DNA of 21,336 nucleotides from a virus: the IMG/VR virus record IMGVR_UViG_3300017708_001867, positions 1 to 21,336 of that record; one strand, written 5' to 3'. Within the stretch, counting starts at the first letter, position 1, and each line of letters starts with the position of its first letter. The notes beneath the pieces were generated by a model that was not told the DNA's origin, did no database searches, and saw only the letters and a list, made by a program, of their open reading frames with translations. Below, piece by piece: positions 1,392 through 2,036 of the stretch. A program made the translations under genes and the position numbers.

Positions 1392-1595
1392 TCAGTCTAC
1401 ATCCCTGTAAATAGACTGAATTTCATCAACTTCGGGGATAGGGTACACTTGTGTGCGTAGTTCTTCAAAACAATAACCAACACCCTTCAGAAAGTCTTCT
1501 GTCTTGTCTACAACATCTTCTAGGATAGTTGCTTCAAATTCTTTAGTTGTTACCGTTGAATCTTCATCAGTGCAGATGAGAGTGAATTGAGGCAT
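1392..1595 (-). CDS. Hypothetical acidic protein, 67 aa; first gene of the left operon
   Basis: Begins MPQFTLICTDEDSTVTTKEF and ends QSIYRDVD. The alternating hydrophobic start (FTLICTDEDSTVTTKEFEA) suggests a beta hairpin, followed by a helix ILEDVVDKTEDFLKGVGY. It is strongly acidic. The start at 1595 has an AGGA ribosome-binding site five bases upstream and lies about 20 bases downstream of the predicted transcription start from the sigma70-like promoter at 1621-1649. It therefore heads the eight-gene operon. No family recognised. Confidence 0.75.
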   Translation of the reverse strand: MPQFTLICTDEDSTVTTKEFEATILEDVVDKTEDFLKGVGYCFEELRTQVYPIPEVDEIQSIYRDVD

Positions 1596-1620: not shown

Positions 1621-1649
1621 AATATAGCATGAAAAAAGAGGGGTTGCAA
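1621..1649 (-). promoter_or_regulatory. Sigma70-like promoter with extended -10 for the left small-gene operon
   Basis: Minus strand: TTGCAA (1644-1649), a 17-base spacer, then TATATT (1621-1626) preceded by TGC (extended -10). The -35 hexamer lies in the loop of the terminator at 1632-1658. Predicted start near 1614, 20 bases before the first ATG. Confidence 0.7.
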
Positions 1650-1658
1650 CCCCCCTCT
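1632..1658 (-). terminator. Rho-independent terminator of the late fibre/oxygenase block
   Basis: On the minus strand AGAGGGG (1652-1658) pairs perfectly with CCCCTCT (1637-1643) around an 8-base loop, followed by a run of six Ts. It sits 24 bases past the stop of the XkdW-like gene (1683-2036), closing the late transcript. Confidence 0.9.
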
Positions 1659-1682: not shown

Positions 1683-2036
1683 CTATTCAGCAGGTTTGGG
1701 ATCTGCGTCCTTAATTGCTTCAATCGCTGCAATCCATGTGCCACTGTTTAACTTACCTTCTTTAATATCATGGTATAGCATATCCAACTGTTTTTCTATA
1801 CCAGGATACTTAGGTGCTCTATCACGCTGATATTGTTTTCCATTCCAAACTGCTAATTGTTTATCATATTCATTAGTAATTTCTTCATCAGTAGGACGAG
1901 GAAGTGTATTAATATCACTCCACTCAAACTTTGTCAAATCATTTTCATAGATGATCCACTCACAACCTGGTCTGAGTGCGTTAATGGCAGTCCCGAATGA
2001 TGGTGCCTTTTCGTTTTTTTGTGCTAATGCTGTCAT
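1683..2036 (-). CDS. XkdW-like small tail-region protein, 117 aa
   Basis: Two regions are visible. Residues about 17-55 carry AINALRPGCEW, then FEWSDINTLPRPTDEEI, a pattern similar to the XkdW family of phage tail-region proteins (I..L.P...., a W in a short strand, then P.PT..E[IL]). The C-terminal part has YPGIEKQLDMLYHDIKEGKL and ends AIKDADPKPAE, a motif common at the end of small proteins encoded beside phage fibres. These proteins are often annotated as fibre-associated or fibre-assembly factors; the role here is inferred. The N-terminal module recurs in the gene at 5003-5332. It lies 15 bases after a fibre-like gene and is the last gene before the terminator at 1632-1658. Confidence 0.72.
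   Translation of the reverse strand: MTALAQKNEKAPSFGTAINALRPGCEWIIYENDLTKFEWSDINTLPRPTDEEITNEYDKQLAVWNGKQYQRDRAPKYPGIEKQLDMLYHDIKEGKLNSGTWIAAIEAIKDADPKPAE

Follow-up and report, generated by a model that had tools for sequence, protein, structure and literature searches.

A terminator and an early promoter appear to be fused into one element at positions 1658-1621 on the minus strand of the window, a 21,336-nucleotide stretch of viral DNA, a reading to which we give a probability of about three in four. It draws on the anatomy, recurrence, conservation and fixed spacings of the element, which would both end the transcripts of the genes upstream and start those of early genes downstream.

Anatomy, gene context and conservation

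The window derives from a T4-like cyanophage, to which Synechococcus phage S-CAM8 (NC_021530.1; Kyanoviridae) is 97-98% identical over 3 kb around the element. In the order of transcription, the minus strand carries a dyad (1682-1658; TGTGCCAGTT-GAAAT-AAGTGTCACA), a hairpin (1658-1637; AGAGGGGGGTTGCAACCCCTCT), a T-tract (1636-1632) and the extended -10 TGCTATATT (1629-1621), in which TG occupies 1629-1628 and TATATT 1626-1621. The -35-like hexamer TTGCAA lies within the hairpin (1649-1644) and is separated from TATATT by 17 bases, with the T-tract inside the promoter spacer. The hairpin, TTGCAA, 17-base spacer, TG and TATATT named in the original prediction are all present on this strand. Its 7-bp stem with TTGCAA in the loop exists as well, but the loop then comprises eight bases (GGTTGCAA), and RNA folding gives nine pairs, G-U included, and a UGCA tetraloop at -13.9 kcal/mol, a stability reached by none of 200 shuffles. 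Judged by its sequence, 1658-1632 has the make-up of an intrinsic terminator, i.e. a T-tract immediately behind a stable hairpin rich in G+C, and the promoter signals that of the sigma70 extended -10 class (TGnTAnnnT with a -35-like hexamer at a distance of 16-18 bases). The S-CAM8 counterpart has an 8-bp stem, a tetraloop and TTGCGA where the window has TTGCAA; the window's hairpin equals this version plus two extra G, which bring the distance from the dyad to the -35, itself weak, to 8 bases instead of the usual 7.

Upstream of the element, a 117-aa gene (1683..2036, minus strand; SXCG_00038 in S-CAM8; PHROG 9114, unknown function) closes a tail-fibre/2OG-Fe(II)-oxygenase block. Downstream, a 67-aa ORF (1392..1595, minus strand; PHROG 935, unknown function) with its ATG at 1595 heads a cluster of small genes that we infer to be early. 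A second candidate terminator/promoter lies at 144-109 on the same strand, bearing out the claim that the window holds two instances of identical geometry: a hairpin (144-125) containing TTGACG (137-132), a T-tract, a 17-base spacer, TG and CATACT (114-109), preceded by a dyad of its own (CGTGACAGTC-GCTG-AACTGGTCTA; 167-144). Elements of this second type occur at 283 places in 198 phage records, with two to three copies in some genomes. The proposed role of the module in separating late from early transcription units agrees with the gene content around 1658-1621, where tail-fibre and oxygenase genes face small early-type genes, but not with the copy at 144-109, which has a small early-type ORF on one side and a helicase gene on the other; late/early separation is therefore not a general rule.

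A -10-type sequence, mostly TG-extended, is found 5′ of the 67-aa gene in 80 related viral loci (L007-L086), whose upstream genes form about 10 clusters without blastp links between them. Most of these loci retain the hairpin with changed stem bases, including one stem that is flipped (CCCCC-TTGCAT-GGGGG where others have GGGGG...CCCCC); since hairpin detection demanded pairing, the 100% of paired stems arises by construction, and the 16 distinct stems are informative only through their variety of pair types. The promoter persists in orthologues with a decayed or absent hairpin, among them the L077 group, which has no hairpin and combines a full TATAAT lacking the TG with TTGACA at the place of the window's TTGCAA, giving a perfect TTGACA-17-TATAAT. 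This suggests that the promoter is what stays constant, the terminator being an addition that this locus can do without. According to cluster labels that we read from the protein sequences, the hairpin is present in 14 of 14 loci with a large glycine-rich tail-fibre cluster upstream and in 0 of 14 with one oxygenase-like cluster, which gives a hint, and only a hint because the loci are not independent, that the terminator may serve structural-gene blocks. A tie between hairpin presence and upstream-gene orientation was also considered and is uninformative, as all analysed upstream ORFs run in the same direction. In three loci (L018, L021 and L046), hairpin remnants (GGGGGTTGC...CTCC) without a T-tract lie ~50 bases 5′ of the 67-aa gene and follow an oxygenase-like upstream gene, an apparent case of terminator decay with the promoter intact.

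Recurrence against shuffled sequence and the upstream dyad

Strong hairpins were collected from S-CAM8, the window and the 80 related loci, yielding 54 unique ones. A -10 lies within 4-30 bases of the hairpin in 27 of them, compared with 4.6 in shuffles (maximum 11 among 300), and nearly all of these start 8-13 bases from the stem; similarity to TTGACA across the hairpin/-10 elements peaks only at a spacer of 17. Because the loci were fetched via a neighbouring gene, many elements in this set are orthologues, a bias that whole-genome scans avoid. In such scans, fused elements with the -35 inside the hairpin exceeded shuffles in S-CAM8 (4 vs 0.25), S-RIM12 (3 vs 0.25) and Syn9 (2 vs 0.15); the matches at 161922 in S-CAM8 and 157556 in Syn9 (both minus strand) look weak and chance-like, and the fused copies in S-CAM8 are few (2-4). 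A pattern scan of viral contigs for unique sites with TTGAC, a T-tract and a -10 found a stem of at least 6 bp at 35 of 35 (4.0 expected) and, without a stem requirement, at 15 of 76 (0.4 expected). The corresponding figure in genome contigs was 9 of 19 unique sites (0.7 expected), indicating that the fused layout also exists outside cyanophages. The original prediction that a composite module of fixed geometry recurs more often than by chance, for which a motif scan of this genome and of relatives had been proposed, is thus borne out by the shuffle comparisons, the whole genomes of S-CAM8, S-RIM12 and Syn9, the independent pattern scans and conservation in related loci.

Several further arrangements came to light. 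One contig titled as a Rhodopirellula MAG (L327; NZVD01000053.1) carries the cyanophage element, as noted together with L153, and is exactly as long (14,985) as viral contig IMGVR_UViG_2788500417_000003; it is probably of phage origin and was placed in the MAG by binning. At S-CAM8 ~156680-156725 and in L112, L097, L107 and L160, the hairpin is longer, has the inner arms AACTGG...CCAGTT and contains TTGAC in its descending arm, followed by a T-tract and an extended -10, which represents another mode of fusion. Finally, terminators in S-CAM8 (88256, 111356, 146227 and 153400) and in loci L003-L006 are directly followed by a late-promoter-like TAAATA, a sequence that comes after 4 of 16 strong hairpins versus 0.8 expected, suggesting that the fused design has a late counterpart.

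The dyad just 5′ of the hairpin has the consensus TGTGNCAGTY-N4/5-AASTGNCACA, spans 24-25 bp and ends ~7 bases before the -35. In its cleanest test, a scan of viral contigs for the dyad alone, 69% of 67 unique sites adjoin a promoter versus 20% when shuffled. The gap between the arms is 4 in 64 of the 67, the -35 starts exactly 7 bases 3′ of the dyad in 31 of 46, and a terminator is present at a single site (1/67). Because the dyad keeps to sigma70-like promoters and hardly ever has a terminator beside it, it looks like an operator of early promoters. A good dyad, at clustered positions, accompanies 9.6% of 261 promoter candidates chosen by loose criteria, compared with 0.5% in shuffles. S-CAM8 also has promoters with a dyad and no hairpin (e.g. 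42857, 44748, 45956 and 47023); a loose dyad scan of this genome matches about as often as in random sequences (89-112 in random), so that these dyads rest on the promoter following each. Neither RB49 nor Syn9 contains a match to the strict pattern, and a literature search by sequence strings gave no phage paper among the 20 of 249 matches listed.

At the variable fifth base the two dyad arms could pair at only 12 of the 41 unique sites, which favours protein recognition of DNA over an RNA stem; on this figure and the persistence of the dyad without a terminator, the RNA stem was rejected as a candidate. The window's own copy can fold weakly as RNA. With slightly more doubt than confidence, we suggest that the dyad may be the operator of a probably host-encoded factor by which many cyanophages select their early promoters, hairpins having been fused into some of these as insulation. 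A third early promoter with a dyad, at S-CAM8 41378-41440, has CCCCTTGACAGGGG at the -35, TTGACA-17-TATTAT and no T-tract, and is possibly a fused element whose terminator function has been lost.

Proposed working and rival readings

In the working that we propose, transcripts from the upstream block, including that of the 117-aa gene, would fold into the hairpin and terminate at the T-tract, while the same DNA in double-stranded form would be read by the RNA polymerase of the host carrying its main sigma factor. The hairpin region would supply a weak -35, and the descending arm together with the T-tract the 17-base spacer, followed by the TG-extended -10, placing the start of the early transcript near 1614, which leaves ~19 bases to the ATG at 1595. 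A transcription factor would probably bind the dyad that precedes the -35; it is most likely one of the host, since no phage proteins have yet been made when early genes are transcribed. In this scheme, the hairpin would be an optional insulator for places where the upstream unit must stop, and the promoter with its dyad the constant part.

It is very unlikely that we are dealing with a plain terminator whose promoter-like hexamers arose by chance, T-tracts and A+T-rich sequence resembling promoters in any case. Taken alone, such hexamers are indeed not above chance in the window (56 found vs 69.6 expected), and the -35 of the 1658-1621 copy is weak, but this account leaves aside the 17-base spacer and the 8-10 bases from stem to -10, both fixed across unique elements, the -10 kept without a hairpin, the TTGACA-17-TATAAT of the L077 group and the dyad at its fixed distance. 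The termination point and the promoter core coincide within ~10 bases, and polymerase released at the T-tract might restart there, so that late transcription would keep the early genes on; given that loci without the hairpin still have the promoter and that RB49 keeps the two apart, we regard such a coupling as highly improbable.

The element could also be primarily a recombination junction, as proposed for the promoter early stem-loop (PeSL) cassettes discussed below, in which the short homology of copies swaps gene modules and regulation is secondary. In blastn comparisons, none of the 80 loci stays similar to the window past 1688, and all break off at the dyad's outer edge or within it; only S-CAM8 isolates stay highly identical into the upstream gene, and in S-RIM12 and ACG-2014 phages similarity ends at 1685-1664. 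These breaks imply that the conserved early unit begins at or inside the dyad, and the unlinked clusters of upstream genes and the multiple copies of the 144-109 type in some genomes speak for exchange as well. Yet the edge fits module exchange without proving it, because tail-fibre regions are hypervariable anyway and, where the conserved early block ends, a break would be expected even with no special mechanism. Moreover, the S-CAM8 copies share little sequence with each other, and PeSL shuffling was judged unlikely in S-PM2 (PMC4503421), all of which makes a primary role in recombination unlikely.

Under the preferred reading of a fused terminator and early promoter, a compact genome would fit both a stop and a start signal within 40 bases, and the motif would flag early operons and the edges of modules in cyanophage contigs. 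The promoter-locked dyad, in turn, would offer a concrete bait for finding a regulator of early transcription in cyanomyoviruses, which a review portrays as lacking Alt, ModA/B, MotA and Asi of T4 and as unclear in their early-transcription control (PMC2984593).

Comparison with known systems

Early promoters of the sigma70 type have been reported for S-PM2 and Syn9 and resemble the present ones in having host-type -35/-10 signals without the Alt/Mod machinery of T4; the account given of them in this part of the review includes neither a dyad nor a fused terminator (PMC2984593). Intrinsic (rho-independent) terminators share the G+C-rich hairpin followed by a T-tract, but the hairpin of the cyanophage element doubles as promoter DNA.

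The closest comparison made here is with PeSL cassettes, which are reportedly found in RB49/phi1, PST and nt-1, in work ascribed to Arbiol in 2010 and Comeau in 2014. In T4-like coliphages, these cassettes are described as composites of an early promoter and a stem-loop and are said to mediate shuffling (PMC4503421). Neither this precedent nor the dyad figured in the original prediction. Both systems belong to T4-like phages and combine an early promoter of the sigma70 type with a predicted stem-loop terminator where variable early genes adjoin. The cyanophage promoter is sigma70-like in its conserved, TG-extended -10 and 17-base spacer, and, on sequence grounds, a stem-loop terminator lies in the same cassette. 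Copies number 2-4 in S-CAM8 and three in S-RIM12, against 14 tandem cases in RB49, and the genes upstream of the cyanophage element vary. Our scan of coliphage RB49, a type phage of the PeSL cassettes, found these 14 tandem cases versus 2.5 expected, plus one fused case; the tandem layout consists of a hairpin, a T-tract and then a separate promoter, mostly with a perfect TTGACA, whose -35 comes after the T-tract. The cyanophage element, by contrast, has its -35 inside the hairpin and its T-tract as the spacer, whereas 14 of the 15 RB49 cases are tandem, and the strict pattern of its dyad is unmatched in RB49. The cyanophage copies thus depart from the RB49 order by being fused, although tandem order may not be part of the published definition of PeSLs. 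Since its two signals are superimposed, we consider the cyanophage element PeSL-like in its working, a fused variant rather than a PeSL proper.
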